A DNA stretch of 64,000 bases from Arbacia lixula. Lineage: Eukaryota; Echinodermata; Echinoidea; Arbacioida; Arbaciidae. Location: NCBI GenBank assembly GCA_963669155.1, contig OZ022593.1:14906758-14970757 (forward strand). Direction: 5' to 3'. Every line of letters starts with the position of its first letter. Within the stretch, counting starts at the first letter, position 1. The notes below the pieces were generated by a model. That model was given only the letters and a program-made list of their open reading frames with translations, made no database searches and was not told the origin of the DNA. Positions 14,201-64,000 of the stretch are shown here, one piece after another. Both the position numbers and the translations under genes were made by a program.

Positions 14201-17200
14201 GACGCAGACTCCTCATGGTTTACCCAAGAATGCCGTTCAGTATACAAACGATATGGCACAGGCAAGAGAGTCATACAAAATAATACACGTATAATAATAA
14301 TATCTGCTGCAAAATGTGAGTTTGCTACTGACCTGTGTGAGGGGAGCCTCTCTGGATCCAGCCTGATGACTGAGACCACATTGCCTCGGTCATCATACAT
14401 CACATCTTTACTACCAGGCGGTCTCCCGGCCTGGACCTAAATATAAACACGAAGAGAGTGATGTAAGCTTCATCTAAAATCATTTTATTACTACATCATC
14501 GTGGCATTAAACAAATTGGAAAATTGGAATTGGATCAAAGTGCCTCTGCTGTCATACTGTGGCTAAGACCTTTACAACAAGGGCTTGATGTAAGCTTCAT
14601 CAAAAATTATCTAGTACCTATATGATTTGAAGAAGATCCATTCACCTCTTCCAAAGAGTTACACAGGTTGTTTCTTATTATCTCATGCTTACTGATACAA
14701 GAGTTAGTCTATGAAAACACCTTTTATGCGATCAAGCAAACATGTCTTTGCCTCTTATGAGTTACACACAACATTCAACCATTTTCAACGATTGTAACAT
14801 TTCCTTACCTTGAGTATTGAGTGGCATGAGGATGGCATGTGAGCGAGGATGGAGTCTGCGACAACAGGTTCTGGAGCCAGGGCCCTCTTCTCAGCTTCTA
14901 TCAGCTCCTTCTCTGTCTCGTCCAGTGTCTTGTGCATGTCTCGCAGGCCAGCTGACCTCACCCGACCTTTGTGCGGCCTGAACTTTGGTCTGCGGGGCTT
15001 CATGACCTGCTTTGGCTGTTGAAGTTATACGGGTAAAAATTAAGTTAACCAGTTGACTACTGAGTTCTCTCATTCATGAAGGATCAATAAGAAGTACTTG
15101 GTTCCAGAAGCAAATAGGATTAATCATTTAAATCAGATTAACTCATGAACTATTGAATTCTTTCAATCATAGGTAATACTTGTTTCCTGAAAGCAATGGG
15201 CTAAACAATCTACGAGCGATATGGTTTAAGTCACTGACTACTGAATTCTCTTAATCACGTGGGCTTAATGCAGGTAATAATTGGTTCCAGAAAGCAATGG
15301 GCATTACAATCTATGAGTGATATGGCTTAACTCGTTGACTCCTGAATTATCTTCATTAGTAGGCTAAATACAGGACATAATTGTTTCTCAAAAGCCCTCA
15401 GCTTGACACATAAAAGAGAGAAATGGCTTCACATGAGTTTCAGTCACAGACTTTTGTTCATTCATATTTAATAATTTATATATTTTTCTCTCTATATAAA
15501 TCTTTACATGCCCCGCATGTATTTTTTCACCAGTATTGCACATAAATTCCATAGAGCATTATTTGAGCTGGCACAGGAAGGGTTATTATGAGATAAGGAT
15601 TGTTGCTTTACCTTCACAACAGGCTCCTGTTTCTCTTCCTTGACAGCTTCTCCTTCTTCCTCTAGTTTTGTCTCTTCCTGCCCAGCGCTTGGTATCCTTG
15701 GCGACTGGTCTTCTGTCTGCGCAGGTGCTGCTTCATCCTCCTTGCTCTCCTTCTCCCCTCCCTCCCCTTCCTCCTCTCCCTCCTCCTCCTTTCCCTCCTT
15801 TTCAACATCCTGCTCCTCGATGGGCTCGATATCCGCATGTGATTGACAGACGACGTCTTCAAGGATGGCGGGGTGAGAGATGGCGCTGACTTCGGTGATG
15901 TCTGTGCCTGGTTCTGAGATGGCAGGTGATGGAAGGGGTCGGTCCTTCTGGGGTACAGAACCCTGGGCCCACGCATCAGGCACACAGGGCTGGGGCTCTA
16001 CACATGGACAGGAAAGAAACAAACTTAATTAATTAAACAATTAGCTTAGTGATATTCTGGGGCTCTATACATTGACATTTAACCACCAATCCCCTAGAAA
16101 TCAATTACAAATATCACCTTAAATGCTGAGTAATCTACTTTATGAATTATAAAAGTTACACTCTATATTTTTAGATATTTACTTGTAGTAATTTGTTCTG
16201 TGGTATTTTATTGACTACAAATCATAGCACATGAAGCACTAGGGCTCTGCACCATATCTAATTAAAATCTTATTCAAATCATATATTTTACATGTTCTCT
16301 GAAAATTACTGCATGAAATACTCACCATCTTCTTCTAACCATGTATGGTCTTCCTCTGGTTTATTTTCTCCTTCATCCCGAGCCAGAAACCTCCACTGAA
16401 AGAAGAAAATGTCACCACAAATAATTAGATTCATTCTCACACAAAATAAGTTAAATGTTATACCAACCTTTGAATTAAGTACAAGAAATGTGAAAACCTC
16501 CACTCCATGAAATATACCAAGAGATCGGAATGGAGTAAGCTACTTTCCCGGAAACTAACAAAGCAAAGCAAGTATCATGGAAACTGCCTACGATTTATCT
16601 TTTGTCATGGCAAGCACACATTGAAGGTATCCTTTCGGTTTAACTTTGATTAGAGTAACACCAAGTCTTGTTTAAGCTCTATTTGAGATTGAAAGAAACA
16701 TATCATGCAAAATGCAGCTAATCATGCTAATTTCATGACTGTTTTTTGAATTTCCCTAATCTTTCCCTTAAGTTTGTCCTCTGGAATGAACTTGTTACAA
16801 TGCGTTTGATGTTCCTTTCATGTAAGTGCTAACCAGGTTGTACAACACTGATTACTTATGAAGAACTAAGTTTATTAAAGGGCATATACTGTACTGGGAA
16901 GGCAAAACAAACTTCAAAAGGTAACTGTTAGCAATCCTCTTGCCAATTGTCTTAAATTCATGTATTGTCCATTTTAGAAGCTTGCTGAAAGTTATTTTCC
17001 CTCAAATATTCCACATTTGGAGTAATTAATGATTAATGATTTAATCCTAAAAATGTTCGGGCCGAACATTTTTAGGATTTGTGATTTAATCACTCATTAC
17101 TCCAAATGTGGATCATTTGAGGGAAAATAACTTTCAGTAATTTTCTAAAATGGACAATACATGAATTTAAGACCATTGGCAAGAGGATTGCTAACAGTTA

Positions 17201-18194
17201 CCTTTTGAAGGCTTTTTGCCTTCCCAGTACAGTATATGCCCTTTAATGTAGCTTACCTCAATAATCTGTAGGATTGCCTCCTTAGCCTGTGTGACAGTGT
17301 ATGGATACAGCTGTTTCTGTATATAGTTATCATAGATGACACCCAATGCATTGTCTACAATGCTTCCTACGATATCGACTATGAAGTCCTCTCCATCCTC
17401 CTTATCAAGCATGGAATTCCTATGAGGAAGAAAAAACAAAAAAATTGGATAAAGATAATTTTGATGAAATGTTTTCCCTGGATAGCATTCAATAATATAA
17501 AGGCTTTGCCTACAATATGTCAGAAAGCATTTTTTTTTTTTTGGGGGGGGGGGGGATGGGGGTGGGGGAGAGGAAGATACTAAGGAAATACCCAATGACA
17601 AGTCGTAAAAATTGCTCCATTGTATGTTTTATCAGTCACCGTATTTTATTAATTTTGCACCATTAATAAAAACCTCTTTATTTGTAGTCAATACGATGAC
17701 ATAATCTATGCCGTGAATCAAGCACTTTATCAATACAGCTTCCTCTGTTAAAATGGAAAGATTACATACAAAAAAAATCAGTACAATTAATCCTTAGGAT
17801 TTTTTATCCAAGAATAACATTGTGTGAAGAAACGAACTGACTATCACTTTCTGTTTATCTGTGAGGGATGACATTTTTACCTTTTTTTTGTTACAACCTA
17901 TGACCATTACAAACCCAGAGATACATTGAGTGGAAACATGAAATTCACTGATCATTTTCTGTGAATCTATTTGGAATGACATGTTCACTATGATTTTCTA
18001 GAAATTCTATGACCCTCAAGACCCCAGAATAACATTGTGTGAATACGTGAAACTCACCAATCATTTTCTGTGAATCTGCCTGGGATGACGTCCGAGTTGA
18101 CCGGTGGGACTGGTACCGACGTGCTTCCTCCCCGGTCCTTGTCTTTGTCCTTGGCCTTGTCCGCTCTGGACTTTGAGACGGTTGCCCGTGACAT
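11231..18194 (-). CDS. C2orf81: C2orf81 orthologue (uncharacterised vertebrate-conserved protein)
   Basis: Nine coding exons, minus strand: 18194-18058, 17419-17257, 16395-16326, 15997-15612, 15015-14809, 14436-14333, 13366-13188, 12253-12129 and 11512-11231 (TGA). All are GT/AG and phase-matched, 550 residues (human about 615). Start ATG at 18194 gives MSRATVSKSRADKAKDKDKD. Diagnostic matches to remembered human C2orf81: a VIPGRFTENDW block at about 36-46, YTVTQAKEAILQIIE then WRFLARDEGE at about 86-110, and DAWAQGSVP at about 130. A Glu/Lys-rich low-complexity stretch spans about 175-235, followed by basic RPKFRPHKGRVRSAGLRD (about 260) and Ala/Arg-rich helix-like segments (about 360-415). 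No signal peptide or membrane helix. Molecular function is unknown. Head-to-head linkage with ENKD1 hints at a cilium or microtubule role (inference only). Confidence 0.9.
11580..11830. repeat. Repeat-derived intronic sequence related to the TCTTATAAAG family
   Basis: Several phrases such as TTGTAACTTGATATTGATTG and TCATTCATAGGATAGGACTTG recur in inverted or direct form within the intron and resemble the neighbouring fold-back. Too decayed to delimit. Confidence 0.35.
11973..12078. mobile_element. Fold-back element (MITE-like), 'TCTTATAAAG' family
   Basis: Imperfect inverted repeat with ends TGTCTTATAAAGATT and its complement AACTCTTTATAAGACA, in a C2orf81 intron. Related fold-backs sit at 35817-35923 and 50601-50786. 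Confidence 0.6.
13000..13177 (+). mobile_element. Probable 3' end of a non-LTR retrotransposon or SINE
   Basis: The sequence runs from TATATGTAAACCATG through CAGGGCCCCCTGGTAGAAC and GAAGGGGCTACCCTGGGTAAA into an A-rich (AATAAAATAAAATAAA) tail that ends against the exon at 13188. This hairpin-plus-A-rich tail layout is typical of CR1/L2-like 3' ends in marine invertebrates. No reverse-transcriptase frame is present. Confidence 0.5.
13424..13776. mobile_element. Large fold-back MITE, copy 1 (one end truncated)
   Basis: Inverted repeat of about 350 bp with a perfect central palindrome AAAATGTTCGGGCCGAACATTTT (split here as AAAATGTTCGG and CCGAACATTTT). The right end reads CAGTATATGCCCTTTAA. 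The left end lacks the outermost TTAAAGGGCATATACTG seen in copy 2 at 16876-17246. Lies in a C2orf81 intron. Confidence 0.8.
15045..15410. repeat. Four-copy tandem repeat, period about 87-101 bp
   Basis: The unit contains TGACTACTGAATTCTCT, TAATACTTGGTTCC and AAGCAATGGGC. Copies start near 15053, 15148, 15235 and 15336. It sits in the intron directly upstream (in the transcript) of C2orf81 exon 5. Confidence 0.75.
16876..17246. mobile_element. Large fold-back MITE, copy 2 (complete), TTAA-flanked
   Basis: Complete copy of the 13424 element. Left end TTAAAGGGCATATACTGTAC, right end GTACAGTATATGCCCTTTAA, nearly perfect inverted arms, central palindrome around ATGTTCGGGCCGAACAT at about 17060. 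TTAA at both ends fits a TTAA target preference as in piggyBac-type elements (inference; the ends do not match the canonical piggyBac CCCT). It ends 11 bp from the C2orf81 exon 2 donor (exon edge at 17257). Confidence 0.85.
17811..18085. repeat. Tandem repeat (period about 107 bp) including the end of C2orf81 exon 1
   Basis: Three diverged copies starting near 17811, 17917 and 18025 share AACATTGTGTGAA and ATCATTTTCTGTGAATCT. The third copy overlaps the real exon end (18058) and its splice donor; the first two are in the intron and are decayed. Confidence 0.75.
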
Positions 18195-32397: not shown

Positions 32398-35300
32398 CTA
32401 GTGGTCATCTTGTCGAAGCCCGCATGGCCGCCTGAATTCCTGGCCGTATTCGTGCAGCCAAAGGTTAGCAACTGTGATCGAATGAGGGGAGAGAGAGGTA
32501 TAATCGTGTACATTAGAATAATAAAATAAAGTAAAAGGATTTCTAGTATGTTACATTCCATATATTTTACTCAAAATGCTCAAAAAATATTTTCTTCAAT
32601 TGAATATATTGCTTTACAAGGTTCAGGATGTTCATTGGATGAACCAGGCTTTAAAACTAGCTCTCACAACTGTAGTTTAAATAGTTTGCAATGTCATATT
32701 TTGTGGTGTACAGTGGTAATATAGATAAATACAACTTTAAAAATAGCAATGCCATCATACCATCTGTAAATGGTCAGTGACATCTACATAAATATGTCTA
32801 AAGAAGTTACAGATAAAAAAGTTCACAATAAAAGAAAGTATCTACAAAGTGTATATCACAATCAGGTTTTAGATATTGATGGAGAATAGGAAAAATGTAG
32901 AGAAAAAAGGGCATGTTGCAAGAAACAAATTTGAAGATTAACATTTGGTTTGATATTAGGACACTCTAATGGTTTCATACGGCCCCACATTTATCAGAGA
33001 AAAAAGATGATCTCACCCCACTTAGAGCCTCCAATCACTGGGCAGGCTGCGTGCTTGGTGTTGTAGTCCGGCTTGCCATTTCTCAATAAGTTATGCCAGA
33101 ATATTGCAGAACCCTGGAGTGAAACAAAAAGATTTAAGTCATGAGACGCAACCCTCCCCATTATTTTACTGGTATCTGACACATGCTTCACGTGCATGTA
33201 CATAGCTCTTGATGTGACTAAGTGAATAATGTGAGCTGTTAATACACTCTTTTATGACAATGCTGCCTTCTTCAAAATAAATTTTAAGGGATATCTTATC
33301 CAATGTCTTAAACTAAACTTGTCTGATGGCAAACCATTTTGAACACCTTTAAAACCAGATGTGTGACCGTTACAAAAAATAAATGTTATTGCCAGCAAAA
33401 GTTTGATTTATTCTACAAATGATCAAGTGTGCTACTACACTTTTAGGCCTTGAACCCTTAACTTTGAATGCATAAGCCTAGTGTATTAACAAAGTAGTGG
33501 TGGATTGATAATAAATAAACGCATGCTTTACAAACCTTTTCTGGTAATGTTCTTAGCCCTATTTCAGGAAAAACAGTAGCTCCTCCACCTGTTACATCAG
33601 TTAACTGAGGAATAAAACATAAGTCAAGTTTATAGCGCTTTGAAACATAGTATTCAGCACAGTATAAATGTGTACCATTAGTATCATTATTTAAGTTGCT
33701 ACTGCTTTCTCTGAGAGCCAATATGGTGCTGTTAGATCTGTGTGGACGTGGATGACGCTCAGGTCCAATGACATCATATTAAAGCTTTGTGCATGCCTCA
33801 AGTTTTGGACCTTGTACAGTACATGTATAAAGATTGCGTGACGGGGGAGTTGCTGTCTACATGAAAATGAGCACCCATACTCTGAACTTCGATCACAAAT
33901 ATTTGAAAAATTAGGCAAACAGTGTTCCAAAGAAGTATGAATATCACTCAATCATTAATTAATTAATTAATTAGAAAAGGAAGGACTACTGGCTGACTAC
34001 TTTGTGGACAAAGTAAAGAATATACTTACATAAAGCAACAATGTTGCTATTCTATTTCCTGTTTTGTACATCTTCGCATCCTGTGACAACAAGGAGTAAT
34101 ATAAATTTGATAATACTAAATGGGAAACTTCTGAAGACTTTATCAATTTTCTGCCTTTCCATGGAATTGTTCCATTTCCCCAAAGCTTAAAACATGTTTT
34201 TGAAATGTAGCAACAACATGGTTTGAAGAGCAATCACAAAATCATTGAATGAAATTGAAACTAAAACCAAAATATGAATTTAAACCAAAATTACTGCAGC
34301 TCTAACCTCCCAATTACAAAAAAAAATCATGTGACTATGTGATGGATGTCATGCTAAACTCATAAATCTGAAAACAAACTCCTGATGTATACAGTATGTA
34401 CTATGTTCATAGCAACCAATATGCAACATTTGTTATGATTATTCATTGTGTACCTGGTGCAACAGTGCTCTATGGGATATGTGTGTATTACTAGTTGATA
34501 AATTCATCCATGGTACACAAAGAGTTAACAATAAACCATATAACATATGAGGATTCGATTCCTGGTGTTGTGTAAGGGTTGTAGTTGCGGGATCAACTAT
34601 GATAAAGTCTATAGTTTGCTTAATTCTGAGTTGAACTTGAAGGAGGACTTGTGGACTCGAGTTACATTACGTTGCAGTACATTTAATACTCAAACAACTC
34701 TCATGGCTAACTCTCTGTGATGAATATATCTGATGAATCTAAAACTCTGTATCTGATGAATCTCCTGAAATAACTCGGGAAATAACTACTGAAATAACTG
34801 CCTCAAACTCTGTGAGCTCTCTAAATGTATACTCTATCTCAAGTTTGAACTAAACAATTATAGTGAAATTCATACAGAAGGTCAGTTTCTTGGATGCATA
34901 TTGATCTCACAGAAACTGGACCTTACCTACATCATCCTAAATTCCAGTAAATGTTATTCAGGGACTAGACCCATAAACTCCTAGGCTCAGCTATAACCTT
35001 GAGGGTAATTCAGCTACTGGAAAGTGGTCATTAACGTGAAAACATCATTTGGGCGGGAGAGTGATAAAAGGACTTATATCACATATTAAACACTGGGTAG
35101 ATCTTACCTTAGTCCAGTCGTAATGTGACAAGTAGTGGCCTCCTAAGCCATAGTTGGCAGCCTGGGTGATGGGTGAAAAAGGGGAGGAAGAGGGAAAAAA
35201 AGAGGAAAGAAATTCACAACTATCAGGGTTATGGGAGTAATGGGCCCCTTACTTCCAAAAAGTGACAGTATGTCACATAATGGATGGAAACTACTTGTAA

Positions 35301-46990: not shown

Positions 46991-47167
46991 TATCAAACAT
47001 CCACTCACTCTCCAGATCCCTATAATGCCCCTCTTGCTCTCTTATTAACTCTTATTGCTAACTTAAAACCATCATGTGTTGCTTATTTCTTGATAAAGAG
47101 CGGTGAAACCCTAAACCTTCTTGCCTTCTTTGTTCATAGGCAGATTAATTTAATTTTCTATAGATCT

Positions 47168-47322
47168 GGGTCATCTTGCATGTAGGTTTTCAATTATTGT
47201 AACTTACCATCAATGTTATCTATCATAGCAACAGCCAATGAGCTCTTATTATTGCACTTATTGCCATGGAAGTTACCATTATTAGTTAGTTTATAATAAT
47301 TGAAAACCTATATGCAACATGG
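47168..47322. mobile_element. Fold-back MITE, 'X-box' family copy b
   Basis: Arms TTTTCAATTATTGTAAC and TAATAATTGAAAACCTA, ends TCTTGCATGTAGG and CTATATGCAACATGG. The centre contains TTGCCATGGAAGTTACC. Confidence 0.8.
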
Positions 47323-49422: not shown

Positions 49423-49580
49423 CTAGACCCTGTTGCATATATCTTTAATTTGTTGTAACTTTCACATTAATGGTACCTACCATGGTAGCAGCCAATGGGC
49501 TTTCAGCTTTACTGATGTTGCTATGGCACTTACCATCAATGTTAAGTTACAATAAATGAAAACATATATGCAACATGGCC
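49423..49580. mobile_element. Fold-back MITE, 'X-box' family copy c
   Basis: Left end CCTGTTGCATATATC and right end ATATATGCAACATGGCC, with inner TTGTAACTTTCACATTAATG and complement. The centre has GTTGCTATGGCACT. Confidence 0.8.
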
Positions 49581-50600
49581 CAGATGTCAAGATACCATGA
49601 AAATGTCGCCAATAGAATTGTCATAATACAAAGGGCTTACAAACATTGCATGAGTTGTTAGATTCATAATTATGACAAGCAACGATAAAACTTGTTTCTG
49701 TGTGAGCCTACCTCAACCCTTTGTTCACTACACAAATCAATGCTCTATGGGATTTCTGTGTATTACTTGTGCGAGAATGCATCTTTGGCACACAGAGTTA
49801 ATTCAAACACTGAGTTCAGGATGTAACATCCGCTAAAGGTGTGCATTGTACAAGCAGGGTTAGAGTCAACTATGTAAGGAGTCACAAACCATCAATGACC
49901 CATATCCTAAATGGTGGTTTAACTTTAGTACACGTAACACATCTGGACTAACGTCCCTTACTCTTTTAACCCATTAAGTTAACCCACCATTGAGAATAAA
50001 GGCCAATCTGTTTAAATTATATACATTCCCTAACTTCATAGAAACCATATGGTTGAACAAAAAACTTAGCTCAGCGAATCCGTATCACTCAGCAATGTTT
50101 TTGTATTTTGTTTTAAAAAAAGAAAGTAAAACTTATCTTTTGGCTATATGTGGTTATGGTAGTGCTAAAAAACAAACTTGAAAAGGTGAACTCCCTTTTG
50201 AGTTGTATGGGCAATGGCAGTGCACTTTGTGATACTGTTCCCTTTTTTTTTATTTTTTTTTTTAGCAAAACTGTATGCAGCTATAAGAAAATGACTGCTG
50301 TGTCACATTTCAACAATTAGATGATTCAGCAATTTGTCATTTTTATAAATTTTTGTTCCAGAAATGCTTTGGCTTTTTTTTTTCATATCCCCAAACTTAG
50401 CAAAGGTTATGATAAAAACACTGCAGCTATTAACCTCTCTTGCTCAATTTCATATAATTTTAAACTTGTTTTGACAACCATGAGACCAACAAAAAAAAAA
50501 TGCATGAAATAAACACAAATACTTGGCACAGATTTGTCAGTACAAAATAAACTTTTCAATAAGTGAAAGCAAGCATGTTGGCTGGAAAGAGGACACTCCA

Positions 50601-50825: not shown

Positions 50826-53800
50826 CTACTCAGTGGCGTCTAATCCACACTTTCGACGGAATTCCTGTCCCATTTCATGGATCCAGATGTTGGCAACTGT
50901 CGAGAGAAAAATACAAAAATAAATCAACTTCAGACTAGGACCCTGTAACATAAAACTTACCATTGATGGTAACTCGCTACCAATGGCAAATTCTAAGGAA
51001 ATCTTAAATTTCATTGGCTGTCAAAATGCTGTTACCATGGTAGTTACCATTGTTGGCCAAGTTAACATCAATGGTAGAACATGGTGAAAATCAGTTAGAA
51101 AATAATACCTGGGGTTCAGGATGATTAAAGGGTTACTAAATTAGAAAAATAAGTTCCTACTAATCTAAGTAAAATCATCCACTAAAAACGAATTTCACAT
51201 TTGTTTGCCGCAAAAAAGTATAATTTTGACGAAAATTTGAAAAAACGCACGCCTGAAAGAGGCTCTATTGTTTTGATTGGTATGGATTCCATTAGAGCGA
51301 GGTACATTTTTATTTCAAGAGGGGCACCTGTGCTATTGAAGGACACTATACTACCCGAAAAGGGGCACCCGTGCCACCCCTGATGAAAAGGCACTACTCT
51401 TATATCCGATTTCCACCTCAAGTGCCCAAACAATGTTACTGATGCAGTGTATCTCTTGCATTGCATTCAAAGCTAAGCATCATTCGTAAGGCTAAACAAT
51501 AATCATTGCAAGCATTTTTACAAATCAGTGTGTACTTTCAAGGAGCCACACTTTTGTTGTCAAGGATCACTTGATCATCTCTTAGAAAAGGGCACATTTC
51601 TCTCTGGTGATAGGGGCACTCTAAAGACTGGACACTATTTGGGGGCAGTAGGGATCCCCGGGGGGGGGGTCACTCACATACATTGGTGCTGCGGGGACGT
51701 GCCGCTTTGAAGACCCCCTTTTTGAGACCTCGATATCCGTTTTTTAGATCCGCTTTATCCTACGCATGGCGAAAATTCCGCGAAAGTTCCGCCTCCGTAG
51801 CCTCCCCACTGTGCCCCTCCCTCCGTTCCCCGCGTCCGCGGCTTGCGTGTAGCTTGCTACGCGTACGCTTCAACGTCAACCCGGCCGCCCGACCCGCCAG
51901 CCGAGCGAGCTGCAAGAAAACCCTGACGTAAACACAACGCGTCACATGTGCAGCGAGGATAGTTCTGTAGACCCTGTTTTTCACAATGCTGGTATATTTT
52001 TAGTTCCTAAGACCCCACATTTTACGCGGATTTTACCCTTGTAGTCAGTTCCTTAGACCCCCATTTCAGGGTTTCGTGAGGCACACCCCCATCAAAATAT
52101 AATTTGAGTGCCCCCCCGGGTAGGGATCGAGTCTTCCACCTACCCCACTTGGATCCTGAGAGCACTGGGCAGGCTGCATGTCTTGTGTCAAAGTTGCCTT
52201 GCCCATTCTTGAACAGGTTGTACCAGAATACAGCTGTGCCCTGCAAAAATGACAACATAATATTGTATGTACACTGAATTATAGGCTAGAAAAAAGTTGA
52301 TAAATGCAGCTTTTGAGAAAGAAATTACATTGGGCTTTACAACAGAATCTCTATATATACACACAGTTACAACCACCTTGCTCGGCATAGCAACATCTAA
52401 AATCATTTAATAAATGGACGAAGTACACATATATTTATTGATAAAATATAAATAGACCATAATACACTATTCAAATATTGCAGACATTGCAATTTTTTGT
52501 CATCCAGTTGATACTTAAATAATGCTGGTAATCATTTGCTGTGATTTCTAATGCTGTTTGCAAACCTTCCCATTTGCCTTGTGGGATTTTTTTTATAATA
52601 ATCATTGATGTATAAGGACTAACAATGGTACAAAACCATTTGGTTTATTCCGATTTTGTCTACAAGAACAATCTGGGGTTATGGTAAGGGCCGAGGTGCA
52701 GGTTTAGGGTAAAAGCTAAGGAGTATATATTTTGGTAAACTCAACATCAAAGTTTCTATGGTTGCCTCACATTCTTCTTGTAAATTTTATGATCGGACAA
52801 AATGAACCATTTAAACATTACCTTTGCTGGGAGCACCCTCGCTCCAACTTTTGGAAAAACAGTTGCTCCTCCTGCTTCTACGTCGCTCATCTAGGGATAG
52901 GAACAAATCCAAAAGTCTTAACAAGAGAACATACATGTGAGTCCTTTCTGTACCAAATGATAAACTGCTCTATGGGATTTGTGTGAATTACTGGCAGAAA
53001 CAATACACAGATGACACATAAAGAGTTAACTCAACACAGCTGCACACAATTCTAAAGGAGTTTATGAAAACAATCAGTATACTTTCAATTGAAACTACCT
53101 GTATTTGAATTGGATATTCTTTAACATTTAACAAATCCTTTGAATGGCCAGTACATAAGAATCACTGGTTGGCATCTCCTATACCTAAGTTTATACACAA
53201 ATGTTCTCTTAAAATCTGAGAAAAAACCCCTGAAACTTAAATGACAGAAAGAATTCCAAAAACACAAGGCCATGATTATACAAAACATACATGCCAACTT
53301 GCCCAGAGAAATTGAGATGAATATGTACATGTATAGAACCTTCTATGATATAACAAACTTATTAAATTGATTCATTATTTTGACATCATGCTAGTACAAT
53401 TCTTTAACTTCTTTCTCTGGTAATTATTAAGGCCTGATATTCTTTCCCAATTGCATATTAGTTTTAAGTTCAATCTAATAGTTTGAAAGGACAGCAGTAT
53501 CTCTTCCTTACTAGGAATACTGATACACATATACTGATAAAATCATGTACAAAAACAAGTGAAAACAAGTGAAAAGTTATCTCACTGGTTCATGGTAGAA
53601 TGTACAGCTGTGATCAATCATGCTTGGACTCTTTTATTACCATTGGTTTCAAGATGTGTTAGCAGGCCAAATGGAATTCCAATGCCTGGTAGGGTGGTCT
53701 CAATACTCTCAATAACTACTACCACTCCTCTGTGGATGGACAATACAGCATTTAACCCTTAGCATAGTGGAACCAAACAGTCCCTATAGATGTCCAGTTT

Positions 53801-56800
53801 AGGAATATAAGATAATTTAAGAGTCGTCTTGATTGTTCAGATACACAAGTTGCTTTACCTCTTTATGAAAATTCACACGTATCAAAAGGTACCACATCAT
53901 GGTTTACTAATCCATGAGCGAAGTACACATATACAAGGCAAGCAGTATTAGAACGTATATGAACCTCTAATGTTTTGAATATATCTGACAAATTCCTTGC
54001 CATTTTTTTTCCCTTTACATATTAAAACTGTAATTACACAGAAGTATAATTATCTAAAAAAATAAAGTGTAATATGATTGTACATCAATGCTTATTCAAA
54101 TGCTATTATACATGCATGCTTAAGATTTCATTTTGAGGATTCCATGTTGAGCTGGAGAAGTTCAAACCTTGAGTGAGATCCTGTGCTCAACACTGCGCGG
54201 AAGTGATGTAATGGTCCAAGAAGAAGAAGAAGAAAAAAGAGAAGAAAAAGGAAGACAGAAGAAGGAAAGAGGGGAAAAACAAGAAGGAAGAAGAAACAAC
54301 AGACAAGGAGGAAGAAGAAGAGGAAGAAAAGAAGAGGAAGAAGAAGGGGAAGAGGAAGAGGAAGAAGAAAAGGAAAGAAAAAGAGGAAGAGGAAGAAGGA
54401 AAGGAAAGAGAAAAAAGAAGAGGAAGAAGGACAGGAAAGAGGAAGAGGAAGAAGAGGAGGAAGAGGAAGAAGGAAATGAAAGGAAAGCGGAAGAGGAAGA
54501 GGAAGAGGAAGGACAGGAAAGAGGAAGAGGAAGAAGAGGAAGAGGAAGAAGGAAAGGAAAGCGGAAGAGGAAGAGGAAGAAGGACAGGAAAGAGGAAGAG
54601 GAAGAAGGAAAGGAAAGAGGAAGAGGGAAAAGAGGAGGGAGACAAAGATGAGGACAAAGAGATAGAGGAAGAAGCAGAGGAAGAAGCAGAGGAAGAAGAA
54701 GAGGAGGAAGAGGAAGAAAGAAAAGGAAGGAGACAAAGAGTATCTGCTTGAGAGATAATTGTCTAGGTACTTACATAGAAGAGTATCGTAGCGATTCTAT
54801 TCCTGGTCCCTAATGACTCAAAGGCCTTTGTCTCCTCGGCCTAAGGGATGTTGTTATGTTGCCAAGGAAGAGGGGGAGGGGGGGGGGGGGGGATAAGAGG
54901 GCAGGGAGAGAATGTGGGGGAGGCAGATGGGAAGCAAAGCAAGAGACAGGCTGGATATCAAATATAACAATGATGTCCACAAGCACAAAGGGTTAGTGAG
55001 TATTTTCCAGGCAGAGACCCTAATTAAGTTAGGCCTATATTCTTAACAGTGGCCAAAAAATGTGATGACATCCAATGATGTTGTCAACAGAATCATAAAA
55101 GTGAGCGGTTCCTGTCATATGCAGGAGCCTTTTCATGGACAAAATAATTGTTTGACAAAAAAGTACAGTTTACATAATTTGCACCTTGCAAATTTAGTGC
55201 AGACTTTTGTTGAACCAATGTTAGGGGTACAGACATCAGCGCCTGAATTTGAACGTGGAGACTACAGTATGTGTGGTCATAAAAGGTGGAAAGCACAATT
55301 ACTGTAGCAAGTCTGGCTAGTTTCAACATACCAGACCATGTTTTGAGTTTAAACATGGTCATGATTGGATCTGTGCCTGCATTCCTGCAGGACTGGTTAA
55401 CTAGTGATCTGTACATGGAAGAATGCACAATTACTAACCTTTGGTTTCTAGGCTGTGGAGTACATGGACACAACTAGTCTCTAAGCAATTACATGTAAGT
55501 CTGGGAAAACAGACTATAAAGCCCCTCTTCCCTGCTTGATCTCTCCTCACACAGGAACAGTATAGTGTAGTATAGTGTTTAGTCTTTATTGCCAGACTTA
55601 ATTATTTGCACACTAGTTGTGTGCAAACTGTGCATAGAATCTACTGCCTAGGACCTAGGCTTTTAATTCTTGGTAAGAAGTCACCAAAAAGTCAATTTCT
55701 CTCTCCCTAATCAGGCAGATCGGTAGGTGTACAGATAGCTATTATAGGCAGCATTTTGTAGAAGTAGTCTTACAGATGATCTTGCTCAGTCAAGGCACTA
55801 TTCTAGGGATGTTTTTGCAGCTGGTTGCCAATTTAGATTATAGTATTGTCATTTTACTGCAAACTGGTAGTTATAATATCTGTAGATTATAACTTCTCAT
55901 CTGTTGTATTCTCTCATTTCAATGTATTATCCTGTATCAGGGTCAAAGCACTACTGAATATGTAAAGCAATCCACTTGTATGAAGGATATGGGTCCTGTT
56001 GCATAAAACCATTGATGGTAACTGTGCTATCAATGGTAATTTCCATGGAAACCTTGAATTTGAATGGCAGTCAATCTGTATTCCCATACCATTGATGGCA
56101 GAGTTACCATTAATGGTAAGTTTTATGCAACTGGGCCATGGACAGAGAAAATTGCATTCTTCCATACACAAGTTCATAGTTCTGGTACTCAGTCCTCAGT
56201 GGGATCATTGAGATTGTGGATGAGGAGTTCAATTACAGTGTGCAAACATGGCAATTATACAGTGTTAGTACATTCTATCATTGTAATTTCAAATGCAACG
56301 TTAGTCAATCAATTCCAAGTCTATTTCTGCCATTCTTGCAACAAGAGCATCACCTGAAATCAAACTGAACAGATTAAACACACAAAATATTCACAAATCA
56401 AAAATGATTTTTTTTTCTTTCACCTCTAATATTTACAATCATTTTGAAGTGAGCGTATTCCTCCAGAAATCTGTGAGACACTTTCATCATTCAGTATTAT
56501 TTCACTTTCACAAAAAGTATTTCTTGTCAATTTTTTTTTTTAGCCAGATCATAACAGCTGTGCCTGTGGACATACTGGTACATGCATATGATTATAATAG
56601 TCTGCCTTCCAGGAACAAGGGCATTTACTTTATCACCACAATTTGTTATTCTTAATTTATTTTATGGAACATATTTTCCCACCTTTAAAGAGAAATAAAA
56701 CAAAATTCATTCCATGGGAATGATAATGAATGATAATGGTTTTATTTTGCATATCCTTGTTGATACTGATTATTAAAAAATGTTGCATTCAGTTAGAAAA

Positions 56801-59800
56801 TATAAATCACAATACCCCTGGAAGTCACACTAGGTAGATGAATGCAATCAGCAATGCAAGGTGAATATGATATAGTGCAATAGCTGTAAGGTAGATAGTG
56901 GGAAGGGCTGAAGGGATGACATCGTGCAATAGCGGAGGAGGAGGGAATGATTGATTTGGTAGTACAAATACTCACATTCTTCCTTGAGAACAAGCCAGTA
57001 CATTAACACATAAACACACACACATTGGAAGACACATTCAACTAGATGTACTTGTACTGTACTCAAGACTGATTTCTACGTCATTACTCACATAAAACAG
57101 GATGGTTGCGATCCTATTCCGAGTGCCCAGGATTTCAAAATTTGAGTCCTTCTCATCTGCCTGGTAATTTTACAAAGGCAAGGATAAATTCCTTTTTGTA
57201 TAAATACTAGCAAACAACTGTTTCTATTTTCATAAGCAAACCTCCGGATTCAAAGTTCAACATGAAGAAAAGTTAAAATCCATTGTGAAGTCTATAGTTT
57301 TTACCTTAAGATTAGAAATAAATGTAAAAGGAAATGTCTCTATGAATTTCAATTTATAGAGATTATAATTATTAAATTTTTAATTTTTAAATTTAAATTT
57401 CTCTAAAAATCTATGAAAGCTCTGCAGCTTTCACAACTTTCTTATAACCAACACGCAGGTAGAATTTTATCCTGATTAACCATACCACATATAGGGTTAG
57501 AGTCACCTTATACACCGCACAGCGACAGCCAGATTTTTCCTGCAGACACACCCACTTCCAGACTTATACATTAGTGCACTAGACTAGAAATGGGTATAAT
57601 TCTCCCTATCACAAAGAGCTCTCCGAATCTGAATGTGTGTGGCGCTCTAATTTTTTTACCTTTAATTCTTGGGATATGAACTTTCGGTTCACGAAAATTC
57701 TACCATGTATAGCCATCATCTTGCTTGTGTCTTTTCATTCTTTCATTAGTCCATCCACAATCAATGTTGAGGTAGGCAAAAACATCACCACGATTGATTG
57801 GTGGTATTTTTTCAAGTCCTTCGTCCATGTAACAACTCTTCCATTTTAATAATATGAGGTTTATGAGGGTCGAAATTACAGATTCTGTGCCTTATTGTGT
57901 GAATTGAATACATACCAAACAGGAGGTATACGTCCCAAAAGCAATCGATCACATATTGGTATCGCGAGGTGATATCGCTCGATATTGGCTATATGTAATA
58001 GGGAGGATTGCACAGCATTTCTGAATGTTGCTGCCTGGTGCATTACAAGATGGCTTTTCCTTATATGGGGTATGAAGAATTGAAATGAAGGACAAGATAG
58101 ATGGATTTTGAGTCTCAAGGCAAAGCCAATGGATGATTTTTTTTTTAGTCTTGATTTGTTTTTTGTTTTCTTAATTTTTGTAACATGTTAAAAAAAATGT
58201 TACAATACATGCACATGGATGTGAAAGATAAAGGGATGACAGGACAGAGAATAAAACAGCACGTCACATTCCTTTGAAGTCATTGTCTGCTAGCTACATG
58301 GATGATCTGTCAACCAAACACCTCTAAAATGATGACCTCCATTGAAGCATGTGTTCAGTTCATACCTCACTCTTTTAGGTTACATTTCTACTTTGAGAAA
58401 TACCAAAACTTATAGAATTACATCAACAAAGTTTCCATGTCAATTTTTGAAGTCAAGTTAATACTCAATTGCTGCAATAGTATATCATTTTTTTCATTTC
58501 CATTTCAGGCCCTGAGTTTAAAGATAGCTTTTACATATTCTGTGATATTGTCTATATCCTGCATAATTGTGCGTTCAAAGGGGAAATACATCTTTTTGAA
58601 AGTTAAAATTTTAGTTTGCACAGGGAATTTTCAAGAGATAAGACAATAGAGTTCAATGAAATCAATCAATCAAAAATAGGACCCACCAGTATTTCAAAGA
58701 ACCATCTGATCGTATATATGACCCAACAGAAAGCGTTCATTAAGCACAGACATTTGCCTTCAAGACGGATCACCCATGGTAACGCAAACTCAAAACACAC
58801 ATACAGATCATAACAGACAGGAAAATGACAATCATAACGCAAGATAATGTGCAGACAAATAGAAATGAAGGACAGCATGAAAGAGGAGGAGCAAGATGTG
58901 TATTGTTAGTCAGGGAGAAGAGGGGTCTGTGACCTTATATATAGAGAGAGGTCACTGTACATGAAGGTCACTGAACTAAAATATAAAGGTCATTGAACTT
59001 AGAGATATTTTGTGCTAGGCTGCTGCACTGGTAGGCCACTTCTGTGCCAAGTTTATAAGTGGTTACTACCAATGGCTGACCAAAGCATCAAATCTGATCA
59101 GTTGTACAGCTCTTGACATTCCATAATTTTTCATCCAAAGTTTATCTTAAGAACTTCCATTCAATACAACCATTATCACATAAAGAAATCACCTACAAAA
59201 TTTCAGGTAATGGTAAAATCATAATCTTTTAATAAAGCTTGATCACAGCTCGTAATCACTCAAGAGTGCTTAATATTTAAAAACCTAAACAAATAGTGTG
59301 ACACTTCCATTGCAGTATTTCAATTCATAACAATGTGGACCTTTACTGTTGCTGGGGCTCTTTTAATGCAGCTTACATCAATAGTCCACACTAACTGCGC
59401 ATCAGGGGGGTGTTTCACCAAGCTGTTCGTAAGTTATGAACGACTTTACGAATGACTGGTGATCCCTTCTTGTGCCAAATCAGATTCTCAATGAACAAAG
59501 TGTCGTATCGCATTTAGCACAAGAAGGGATCACCAGTCATTTGTAAAGTTGTTCGTAGCTTATGAACAGATTGGTGAAACACCCCCCTGCTCTTATACAC
59601 CTCATAAATATTCTCTGTGCATATCTAGCACATTCAGGAGAAAAGAAACTTTCTCCCCACTATTTCTTATTTTTAGGCCAATGGAGGGTAATGTTTCATT
59701 TGTGAAGAGCCAATCACAATCAAGAAAATTTCTTCCGGACTTTCAAACAGATTTCTTCTCAACTGTGTGGACACATAAATCTGTGCGTGCATATCAACTA

Positions 59801-62098
59801 TGCTAGTATACGAGCCTTTGCAGACGATTAGGGCATGCTTGTGTGCATGGTTTTGAATGACTTCGGATAAGGGGTGGCTGTCCTAAATATATTCCTAACT
59901 CCTCTCAAATGCGCATTCTGGCATACCAAATCATCTTAAGCTGCCTATTTGCCAACATCTAAATATCGTTTCAAGTTTCTTCATCCAATTACGAAGAGAG
60001 TTATGATGAATTTCAGAAAGCAGCTAAGAAAAAACAAAGACTGAAGACAGATTTTTGACCTAGGTAGAATTTTGGAATGCCATCCCAGCTATATATTTCC
60101 CATTACTGCACATACTGTTGCACAGAAGATGCGCACTCATTCGGTCACTTGCCAAGGGACAAAATGTGCGGAATGAGCTGCGTAATGGCACGCACGGTGA
60201 AACCATGTTTCTAGCCAGAAAAAAATCTTATAAATGCACCCAATACAATCTTCTAAAAACACTGATTCTAGTAACACAAAATGTTACAAATAAAACGATG
60301 GACAAAACCAATCACAGACTGTCCTGCTAGTACCCCATCTTATTGCCTTCACTATCGTACACTGAGTAAATTCAAAATGTAAAGTTAATTCACAGTTTGA
60401 CCTTAACCTTTGACCTTTATCATATCTAGCTCAAAACTGACTTCATTAACCTGCCATACACAATCTTTAACAAAATGTCGATGAAATCCTATCAAATATA
60501 TCTTGCGTTTGGGCACTGAAACACAATTTCAGAATTTTACCTGAACCCTTGACCTTCATCATGACCCCTGAAATTATTTACTTAATCTGTCAAACATTAT
60601 CTTTCAATGAAGTCTTATAAAAAAAAAAATTGCATCATGGCATAAAAAAATCAATAAGAATTTTAGCTCGACTCTTAATCTTAAACAAAATTAACTTTAC
60701 TAAACTTTCATAGATCATAAAAGAAATTTATATGAAGTCCTGTCATTTGGGCAAGCCAAATTAATTTGAGAATTTTTTGCTGACCTTTGAACTTAAGCAT
60801 ATCTAACACCAACTCAATCACAGTAATGGTCCCAACAAATTTTTTGTGCAATGAATTAAATTCTGTCAAATATTTATTAATTAAACTGACAAAAGAGATA
60901 AAGAAGATGGACAGACATCCGCGCAGATTGACACAACCCCACACACAAACAAAACACCATCGGTTGTGTCATGGCAAAGCCTGTATATTAAATATTTCAT
61001 GTTCATTCCACAATATTCAAGCGTATTGAGTCATCTGTTTGTTACCTCCTATTTGTATTCTAATGATAGAGTTACTGCAGGACATAGCTCAAGAACAGGC
61101 AGAGTGCCATAGAGGAATAATGCTGTGGTTCAATAAGTAGAGAGTATGCCCATTGCTCATAGGGTTAAAAACCCACACACATGCTTGCAAAAGAGCTAGA
61201 ATTGTGTTTTGCTGTTTCCTCAGACCCCCCCCCCCCCCCCTTCACCCATACATATTGCCCTATTCCTATATAATTTGCTTCACCTACAGTACGCCTAGCA
61301 CATCTAGAACAACTTCAATTCCCAAAGAGGCAAAAAATGAACAGAACTATTTTTCAAGTCTTACGGAATAAACTGACACCATGAACTGTGTAATGCATTA
61401 TACCATTATGGAATAACAATTTTTCACAGAGGGTCTTTTTTAAAAATTGCCCTGTGCCATCATGTTATTCTTTGTACTGCACTTAACTGAGATTCACCTT
61501 CACCTCTGACATAATTTTGCCCAACATTATATGAATCAATGGCCCTTTGTTAACTTCACATCTGTATCAACTCTGATGAATTTCTGTTCAAACATATCTT
61601 CGGTACCAAAAACATTTACAAATTTTTTTCACCTTTAAATTGCATCTTTATACTTGATGCTATCCATTTTTTAAGCATAATCACTAGACAATTGACATTA
61701 ACTTCTTCTCCGCTTGCCTCCATATTGCCCTATGTGAATAGTGTGTATTGCCAGAGCAAAAATAAATCTATCAATAGAGAATAAAGGGTTAACTCCTTCT
61801 CTGCCAGACTCCACACTGCCCTATGGGAATGGTGTGTATTCACAGGGAAAAAAAACTGCCTCAATGGCACATACAGAATAAACACCTTCTATGCCAGATT
61901 TCATATTGCGTTATGAGAATGGTGTGTATTACCATGGCAAAAATGCCTCAATGGCGCATAAAAGTTAAGCCATGAGTTGATCACCAGCTGTACCTTCCAT
62001 CATGAACCATGGTAACTGATCACCTGACTTCAGCTACTCACATAGAATAATATTGTAGCTATTCGGTTACGTATTCCTCCTGCATAAGCATTGGGTAT
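50826..62098 (-). CDS. P4HA: Collagen prolyl 4-hydroxylase subunit alpha, gene B (catalytic C-terminal part)
   Basis: Visible coding exons, minus strand: three alternatives (62098-62042, 57160-57092, 54840-54775), then 52890-52822, 52240-52144 and 50896-50826 (TAG). Exon sizes 69, 97 and 71 nt match gene A (69, 97, 74). The 69-nt exon encodes the SDVEAGGATVFP motif. The 97-nt exon holds the distal iron-binding His (TRHAACP) and the 2-oxoglutarate Lys (GSKW). The end reads EMGQEFRRKCGLDATE. The exon with H-x-D and all N-terminal domains must lie beyond position 64000. It has its own terminal exon and stop and is in the same orientation as gene A, so it is a separate head-to-tail paralogue. Role as for gene A. 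A hAT-like insertion and a long pyrimidine tract lie in its introns. Confidence 0.9.
50941..51085. mobile_element. Fold-back MITE, 'X-box' family copy d (variant)
   Basis: Starts CCCTGTAACATAAAACTTACC and carries TTACCATTGATGGTAAC. The centre has GTTACCATGGTAGT (51031-51044). Right arm GTTAACATCAATGGTAGAACA. P4HA-B intron. Confidence 0.75.
51657..52120. mobile_element. Non-autonomous hAT-like transposon, 464 bp
   Basis: Inverted ends CCCGGGGGGG...CACTCA and TGAGTGCCCCCCCGGG are flanked by a perfect 8-bp target duplication TAGGGATC (51649-51656 and 52121-52128). The interior is CpG-rich and unlike the AT-rich surroundings. There is no transposase frame. An 8-bp duplication is characteristic of hAT (and a few other) families; family assignment is inference. 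Confidence 0.85.
52940..53040. repeat. Single copy of the dispersed 'CTCTATGGGATTTGTGTG' repeat
   Basis: CTGCTCTATGGGATTTGTG followed by ACACATAAAGAGTTAACTC. Same family near 26568, 34469, 49739, 37390-37560 and 61690-61975. Confidence 0.6.
54208..54726. repeat. Polypurine (GGAAGA)n tract of about 520 bp
   Basis: Almost pure purine on the plus strand (AGGAAGAGGAAGAAG-type units), therefore a pyrimidine tract in P4HA-B RNA. It begins about 48 nt after the 5' splice site of alternative exon III. Glu/Arg-rich and Ser/Leu-rich frames over it are artefacts. Confidence 0.95.
54775..54840 (-). CDS. P4HA-B alternative exon III (22 aa)
   Basis: Acceptor cccttag, donor gtaagt, phase 0-0. Encodes AEETKAFESLGTRNRIATIL plus FY. 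Homologous to the mutually exclusive exon 9/10 position of vertebrate P4HA1 (ELGTGNRIATWLFY-type motif). Closest to exon II. Confidence 0.9.
54877..54892 (+). repeat. Poly-G run
   Basis: Homopolymer G of about 16 bases inside a G/A-rich context, 37 bp upstream (in RNA terms) of alternative exon III. Confidence 0.9.
55991..56139. mobile_element. Fold-back MITE, 'X-box' family copy e (variant)
   Basis: Left GGGTCCTGTTGCATAAAACC, right GGTAAGTTTTATGCAACTGG. Inner ATTGATGGTAACTGTGCTAT and complement GCAGAGTTACCATTAATGG. Between alternative exons II and III of P4HA-B. Confidence 0.85.
57092..57160 (-). CDS. P4HA-B alternative exon II (23 aa)
   Basis: Acceptor ttaccag, donor gtgagt, phase 0-0. 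Encodes ADEKDSNFEILGTRNRIATI plus LFY. Same position and phase as exons I and III. Confidence 0.9.
59403..59590. mobile_element. Large fold-back element with arms of about 75 bp
   Basis: Ends CAGGGGGGTGTTTCACCAA and TTGGTGAAACACCCCCCTG. Arms are highly similar throughout (ACTGGTGATCCCTTCTTGTG and complement), with a central unpaired region of about 35 bases. No clear target duplication. Confidence 0.9.
60395..60960 (+). repeat. Decayed repeat with TGACCTT-type motifs
   Basis: Diverged TTTGACCTTAACCTTTGACC, CCCTTGACCTTCATCATG and CTGACCTTTGAACTTAAGC phrases occur about 105-140 bp apart, related in style to the 63127-64000 array. Confidence 0.5.
61095..61180 (+). repeat. Possible tRNA-derived SINE fragment
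   Basis: TGTGGTTCAATAAGTAGAG and AGGGTTAAAAACCCACAC resemble degraded A- and B-box regions. Weak. Confidence 0.25.
61690..61975. repeat. Three-copy tandem array of the 'GTTAACTCCTTCTCTGCCAG' repeat
   Basis: Period about 90-100 bp. Each unit carries ATTGCCCTATGGGAATGGTG-like sequence, GTGTATT, then CAATGGCRCATA and a TTAA-containing boundary. Just downstream (in RNA) of alternative exon I. Confidence 0.8.
62042..62098 (-). CDS. P4HA-B alternative exon I (19 aa)
   Basis: Acceptor ttcgacag, donor gtgagt, phase 0-0. Encodes IPNAYAGGIRNRIATILFY. Its N-terminal half differs completely from exons II and III while the RNRIATILFY end is identical. First of the three in transcript order. Confidence 0.88.
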
Positions 62099-63126: not shown

Positions 63127-64000
63127 ATGTTAATTGACCTTTGACTTCCAATCTAATCAGTCCGTCTAAAGCCATCCTTGTATCAAGTTTGTTTAAAATT
63201 AGCCAATCTGGGGGTAAAGTTCATTGACCTTTGACCTTTCAGAAATTTTACACACACTTTCACCAGTCTACCTCCATGAAGTGATACATCTCTATACTAT
63301 GTTTGGTTCACATTGAACCATTAGTTTTGCATTCAATGTGAAAAATGTTAAATTTGGCTCAATTTTTAGCCAATTTTGGCATAGATCATTGACCTTTGAC
63401 CTCTGACCTTTGAGAATTTTCACCAAAAATATCATCAGTCTACCCCCAAGTAGTGATCCATCTTTGCACCATGTTTGGTTGGTATTGCACAATTGGATCT
63501 TGATTTATTTTGAAAAATATTACTTTGGGGGAAATTTTTTAGTTATTTTTGGCAAGGTTTATTGACCTTTGACCTTTCAGGAATTTTACCCAAACTTTCA
63601 TCAATCTACCTCCATGAAGTGATACATCTCTGTACCATATTTGGTTAGAATTACACCATTGGATTTGGGTTTATTGTGAAAAATATCAATTTGGGGCCAA
63701 TTTTTAGCAAATCATTGCAAAGTTCATTGATCTTTGACCTCTGGCCTTCCAGGAATTTCACCAAAAAATGTCACCAGTCTATTCCCAAGTAGTGATCCAT
63801 CTTAGTACCACGTTTCATGAGAATTGCATTTTTGGATTTAGTTTTATGGTGAAAAATAGGAAGTCTTGGGCAGTTTTTAGCCAATTTTGGTGAAGTTCAT
63901 TGACCTTTGACCTCTGAACTTTCACAAATTTTATCATAAATGTCACCAGTCTATTCCTAAGTAGTGATCTATCTTTGTAATATGTTTCATGAGAATTGCA
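63127..64000 (+). repeat. Satellite-like tandem array, alternating 165/173-bp units with DR1 motifs
   Basis: Units begin with TGACCTTTGACCT-type motifs at 63225, 63390, 63563, 63728 (one mismatch) and 63901, preceded by a partial copy at 63134. Type A units have ACCTCCATGAAGTGATACAT, type B have CCCAAGTAGTGATCCATCTT. The order is A-B-A-B-B and runs off the window edge. Confidence 0.9.

Follow-up and report, generated by a model that had tools for sequence, protein, structure and literature searches.

We found an array of three alternative exons, here called A, B and C, in a collagen P4H alpha gene of an echinoderm, where they encode the region of the betaII-betaIII loop, in a window of 64,000 nucleotides (the whole stretch of DNA that was analysed). 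We regard it as probable, from the sequence, that these exons form a tandem-duplicated cluster in an intact collagen P4H alpha gene and that one exon is taken per transcript. The array is most likely mutually exclusive, and we infer in the same way that all three exons are used.

Structure and age of the exon array

The three exons lie on the minus strand, all in phase 0-0: exon A at 62042..62098 (57 nt; IPNAYAGGIRNRIATILFY), exon B at 57092..57160 (69 nt; ADEKDSNFEILGTRNRIATILFY) and exon C at 54775..54840 (66 nt; AEETKAFESLGTRNRIATILFY). Their N-terminal halves differ, with 9 residues in A (IPNAYAGGI-), 13 in B (ADEKDSNFEILGT-) and 12 in C (AEETKAFESLGT-), and each half is followed by the identical C-terminal half RNRIATILFY. 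All three have AG acceptors, with donors GTGAGT or GTAAGT that fell at percentiles 98.1, 98.1 and 98.7, respectively, among the 3,643 GTs of the minus strand when scored with a simple hand-entered PWM. The introns between the array members are 4,881 and 2,251 nt long. The coordinates, lengths, splice sites and translations of the initial annotation were all reproduced, together with its different N-halves joined to one shared peptide and its single common downstream exon, MSDVEAGGATVFPKVGARVLPAK, at 52890-52822 of the minus strand (52822..52890). The phase 0-0 that it had assigned is right because the exon directly upstream (65420-65196, in coordinates extended beyond the window) ends in phase 0 at 65196, and frame neutrality in any combination holds as well, all lengths being multiples of three. 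Exons A, B and C are thus adjacent, homologous and frame-compatible internal exons of similar length, as the members of a mutually exclusive cluster are.

A scan for the shared motif on both strands of the window recovered four sites with the full score of 10, namely A, B, C and one in the neighbouring P4HA gene, and the runner-up scored 8. Of 40 Markov-shuffled windows, 35 peaked at 8 and the other 5 at 9, and a single shuffled match that scored at least 9 had a GT directly after it.

Within the ten shared codons, A and B differ at 11 of 30 bases, A and C at 8, and B and C at 7, with zero amino-acid changes. When equal numbers of substitutions were placed at random, 0, 1 and 7 of 200,000 draws, respectively, contained synonymous changes only, a result that is partly ascertained, as the exons were spotted through their identical peptides. 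In the 1-kb flanks, the exon end and the donor were shared (A with C, B with C), plus short weak or low-complexity matches, and nothing more. We read the exons as old, selected copies rather than haplotypes, because their codon differences are synonymous only and their flanking introns are unlike; on the same sequence evidence, collapsed haplotypes, recent duplication or decayed copies are unlikely. Collapsed haplotypes or pseudogenes, the origin that the initial annotation had named as fatal to its own proposal, are hard to reconcile with unlike introns, intact gene models and synonymous-only changes.

It is very improbable that the three exons are an assembly artefact or remnants of tandem genes, derived from collapsed haplotypes or from broken neighbouring P4HA genes. 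A tandem P4HA paralogue does adjoin the gene, so that local duplication occurs here. Against this stand the unlike flanking introns, a gene that is intact upstream of the array, and the lack of any other duplicated exon in the gene in a tblastn search with human P4HA1. In addition, a search of the 607-Mb genome with the exon C peptide matched C and B only, which also makes haplotype or assembly copies unlikely; as this search missed exon A and the exon of the paralogue, it does not exclude more diverged copies elsewhere.

Host gene and the part of the enzyme that is exchanged

The remainder of the gene was located in the assembly (607 Mb, 590 contigs) after adding 40 kb past position 64000, which gave a total of 104 kb in extended coordinates. 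The animal's COX1 translates as expected with mitochondrial code table 9 (for example DRNINTTFFDP, where table 5 would give DRNIKTTFFDP), a code that flatworms also use, and an echinoderm is the most likely host. The exon directly upstream of the array (65420-65196, minus strand) ends in ...GGHYEPHFDFAR followed by gtgagt; its last residues are ...HYEPHFDFAR, and the gt comes at 65196. The modelled start codon is at 94684 (extended). Downstream of the array and of the common exon, an exon at 52144..52240 (minus strand; GTAVFWYNLFKNGQGNFDTRHAACPVLSGSKW) holds, by motif, the second iron-ligand His and the 2-oxoglutarate Lys, and the last coding exon with the stop is at 50826..50896 (minus strand; VANIWIHEMGQEFRRKCGLDATE). 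Spliced models with A, B and C have 551, 555 and 554 aa, respectively, each with a single, terminal stop. The isoform A model combines the P4Ha_N, peptide-substrate-binding TPR (TPR_P4H) and 2OG-Fe(II) oxygenase (2OG-FeII_Oxy_3) domains in one protein, all above the curated cut-offs, which is the domain set that defines a collagen P4H alpha subunit. The HxD...H and Lys signature was found in the isoform C model, by motif and by alignment to 7zsc, as H449, D451 and H520, which we take to be the iron ligands, and K530, which we take to be the 2-oxoglutarate lysine. The isoform C model was 46% identical to human P4HA1 over 555 aligned positions.

Further copies of the exon, for which the initial annotation had proposed to look beyond 64000, were not found there, and the gene proved intact. 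In particular, tblastn and the motif scan detected no fourth copy in the 3,097 nt between the upstream exon and exon A, nor in the introns or further upstream. An intron of the gene contains a minus-strand ORF of several hundred residues, from extended position ~76266 downwards, which is presumably piggyBac-type transposase-like.

Two collagen P4H alpha genes were found genome-wide, both in tandem (from window position 32410 to extended position 94684). A genome search with the GTAVFW exon gave 2 clear matches out of 3, and all five P4Ha_N matches of the genome, 4 of them above the cut-off, belong to the two tandem genes. The paralogue, P4HA-A, has a single equivalent exon (34030..34080, minus strand, phase 0-0; DAKMYKTGNRIATLLLY), which comes after ...HYDWTK. 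Its hairpin-loop exon contains an in-frame TAG at 35731-35729 of the minus strand (LERATI*NSTSGD), where the array gene reads LQRATIQNSITGN; P4HA-A may be inactive, polymorphic or missequenced at that place, or may use an acceptor 21 nt further on. Elsewhere in the neighbourhood, an exon of a neighbouring gene (17191-17628, minus strand) matches Pfam DUF4639 (E 3.2e-8).

The region with exon C aligned to human C-P4H-II (PDB 7zsc) without gaps (E 1.1e-53), and that with exon A aligned with three gap residues (E 6.2e-48). The betaII-betaIII region of C-P4H-II is given as Arg435-Gly448 in PMC9676403, where it is described, on the basis of the algal enzyme, as one of two substrate-binding loops. 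Counting the 14 residues R435-G448, the alternative exon starts one residue past the match of Arg435. By this alignment, the variable N-halves correspond to the betaII-betaIII loop, and RNRIATILFY to the last residue of the loop plus the following strand. Each exon would thus supply the same following strand and nearly all of the loop, which together with a second loop would close over the substrate chain. With 9 loop residues ahead of RNR in A, 12 in C and 13 in B, the choice of exon would change the length and the sequence of the loop near the substrate. The iron ligands and the 2-oxoglutarate lysine are located in the constitutive exons that flank the array; therefore the choice of exon would alter the loop while chemistry and fold stay constant, and we infer from the sequence that it may affect the substrate.

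Probable mutually exclusive use and its possible control

Skipping all three exons, or including two of them, would keep the frame but would remove or duplicate a core beta-strand; therefore exactly one exon should be needed for an active enzyme. Exclusivity by loss of frame is excluded, every length being a multiple of three, and exclusivity by steric crowding is unlikely because the introns between the members are too long for it at the lengths given above.

The same frame neutrality speaks for in-frame cassette exons that are included singly or together, so that the loop region would vary in copy number as well as in sequence, and the good GT-AG sites on all three exons fit this also. We consider such cassettes improbable. 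Joint inclusion would put a second core strand into the double-stranded beta-helix, and PMC5740500 gives 87% as the share of mutually exclusive exon regions in human that lie within secondary structure elements, which fits the exon type found here. It is likewise rather unlikely that one or two of the exons are in use and that the others are old duplicates, silent or present only in rare transcripts. Exon A does have the most deviant N-half, and exon C lies between pyrimidine tracts that could silence it; on the other side, the ten shared codons are conserved at the protein level despite 7–11 base changes, and the splice sites are intact. A cluster from which one exon is chosen per transcript thus remains our preferred reading.

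The pyrimidine tracts are at 54860..54939, just upstream of exon C, and at 54205..54748 (544 nt), just downstream of it, both on the minus strand. Flanking tracts of this kind also occur at exons under repression by polypyrimidine-tract-binding proteins. A two-sided placement as at exon C holds for 0.07% of positions, and the window contains 4 pyrimidine tract entries and 23 overlapping purine tract entries. We treat the flanking tracts as no more than a lead to a possible control of exon C because such tracts are common in the window.

A long-range RNA stem that joins the introns downstream of A and of C, and would thereby loop out B and C, may account for part of the exclusivity. The candidate arms, with a putative function, are on the minus strand at 61971..62009, 32 nt behind the end of exon A, and at 53586..53622, within the intron that separates exon C from the common exon. 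They were found post hoc, after looking. Among 28 pairs of 350-nt intron ends, none showed pairing near the exons at p<=0.05 (60 shuffles each), and arm 2 falls outside the ends scanned. When whole introns were scanned, the score exceeded the highest of 10 shuffles for 5 out of 6 intron pairs. In four of these it came from low-complexity or homopolymer runs; pairing of homopolymer G/C runs between introns was discounted, as the 104 kb contain 18 runs of at least 10. The fifth pair joined 62009-61985 with 53610-53586 and scored 47 versus 44 for the best of 10 shuffles, a narrow margin. With gaps it extends to 62009-61971 and 53622-53586, with 34 of 39 positions identical in reverse complement. 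With a 96-nt query that was picked once the scan had been made, its E value was 4e-6, and it would be about 100 times larger with all four introns as the query. The two arms gave -49.8 kcal/mol, and the best 60-nt window against the arm 2 region -56.0 kcal/mol, compared with a mean of -17.7 (sd 5.3) over 1,417 windows.

If formed, the stem would enclose B and C in a loop and place A next to the common exon, and we retain it as a lead to the control of exon A choice, one suggested by base complementarity. Nevertheless, we lean towards the view that the pair (62009-61971 with 53622-53586) is a local inverted duplication that is neutral and plays no part in splicing. The 104 kb contain 19 inverted pairs of such strength with arms within 12 kb of each other, among which the stem ranks 15th-16th by score. 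Arms more than 600 nt apart were found in 13 of the 19, and a rotation test with 12 of these 13 (the omitted pair overlaps another low-complexity pair) produced such a geometry by placement alone in 467 of 14,858 offsets (3.1%). A docking-site/selector arrangement would have a selector near each alternative exon; here there is one candidate stem, for exon A only, and the intron pairing scans and window energies gave no comparable selector for exon B. What speaks against neutrality is the position of arm 1 so close behind exon A, and a core that is nearly unique in the genome: the 25-nt core matched these two places plus two others with 3 mismatches in 607 Mb, a search whose pattern was built from the arms and so favours them, whereas both of the comparators for which a count was obtained, out of 12 other inverted pairs, belong to repeat families, with 434 and 6,309 matches. 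The larger of these families corresponds to the inverted pair 47164-47233 / 49516-49585, the 25-nt core of which (up to 3 mismatches) is an abundant dispersed repeat. A further point against a role of the stem is a stronger inverted pair of the same gene, 50941-51075 with 56008-56135 (60.8 bits), which spans exon C and two common exons.

Relation to known alternative exons

For 14-3-3zeta, Dscam1, DNM1 and ATE1, PMC11802352 describes long-range pairing of intron sequences, which connects a chosen exon with a constitutive exon or loops out the others. The looping out in those genes resembles what the candidate stem would do here; the array gene differs from them in having one candidate stem, for exon A only, with no competing selectors found.

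Among the paper titles listed (e.g. the best 15 of 687), none describes alternative exons of P4HA in an echinoderm or another invertebrate, and automatic annotation may already list these isoforms. The substrate chain would be held by two loops, one of them the exchanged loop, and three natural loops on one constant enzyme body could serve as a test set for the part of the loop in collagen choice. Just two such genes were found, the other with an in-frame stop in the assembly; therefore the choice of exon may bear on most of the collagen of the animal.

Should vertebrate P4HA2 have the pair in common with this gene, the alternative splicing would be an old event. According to PMC9741552, 21 human tandem-exon events have an orthologous invertebrate event, and P4HA2 may or may not be among them. 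A more far-reaching proposal, which we think improbable, is that the choice between a short and an LGT-type loop predates the chordate-echinoderm split, that the echinoderm line duplicated the second member, and that the 39-nt stem selects A. If both the ancient choice and the stem were true, one gene would encode three forms of the substrate loop, with a possible link to the specialised collagenous tissues of echinoderms.

Regarding the vertebrate counterpart, the initial annotation was right in its three-member, frame-neutral alternative array in the P4H catalytic domain and wrong in matching it to the exon pair of P4HA1. The human P4HA1 pair also consists of homologous tandem exons in the catalytic domain of the same enzyme family. 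However, the P4HA1 splice variants are described in PMC9676403 as altering the hairpin loop and not the betaII-betaIII loop, at which the array sits, and P4HA1 is thereby ruled out as the counterpart; the gene here shows one hairpin-loop exon (65420-65196 extended, tblastn). The P4HA1 exons are named 9/10, 9a/9b or 10a/10b depending on the paper, and a regulated choice between them is reported (PMC11868403, PMC5224494). A review states that both human transcripts are similarly expressed and may function alike (PMC12525012), and a hypoxia-linked effect of one form is reported in PMC11868403.

The human counterpart is instead P4HA2 12a/12b, because the array is at the betaII-betaIII loop. In human and mouse P4HA2, exons 12a and 12b are mutually exclusive (Nokelainen 2001, cited in PMC9676403), and the choice between them alters the sequence and the length of this loop (PMC9676403). 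The array occupies the same position as that pair, between HFDF(A/S)R and MSDV. The N-halves of B and C matched the 12b peptide (p<0.001 and 0.001, respectively; 2,000 shuffles each), as 12b-like exons would. Exon A did not match 12b (p 0.70), and its resemblance to 12a was weak and not significant (p 0.13), so that we do not assign it as the 12a orthologue. B and C thus appear to be of the P4HA2 12b type, and A of a shorter type that comes first in transcript order. Provided that 12a lies ahead of 12b, as the names suggest, vertebrates would also have the short type before the LGT type, which hints at a common arrangement. Phase 0-0 is established for the gene here and for P4HA-A only, and common ancestry with P4HA2 12a/12b is plausible rather than certain. 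In sum, the array and P4HA2 12a/12b share the gene family and the place in the protein, and it is the 12b form, present in 7zsc, that B and C match; the difference is that the array has three members, two of them 12b-like. By its sequence, the array would thus be a further variant of the P4HA2 12a/12b kind, with one option more.
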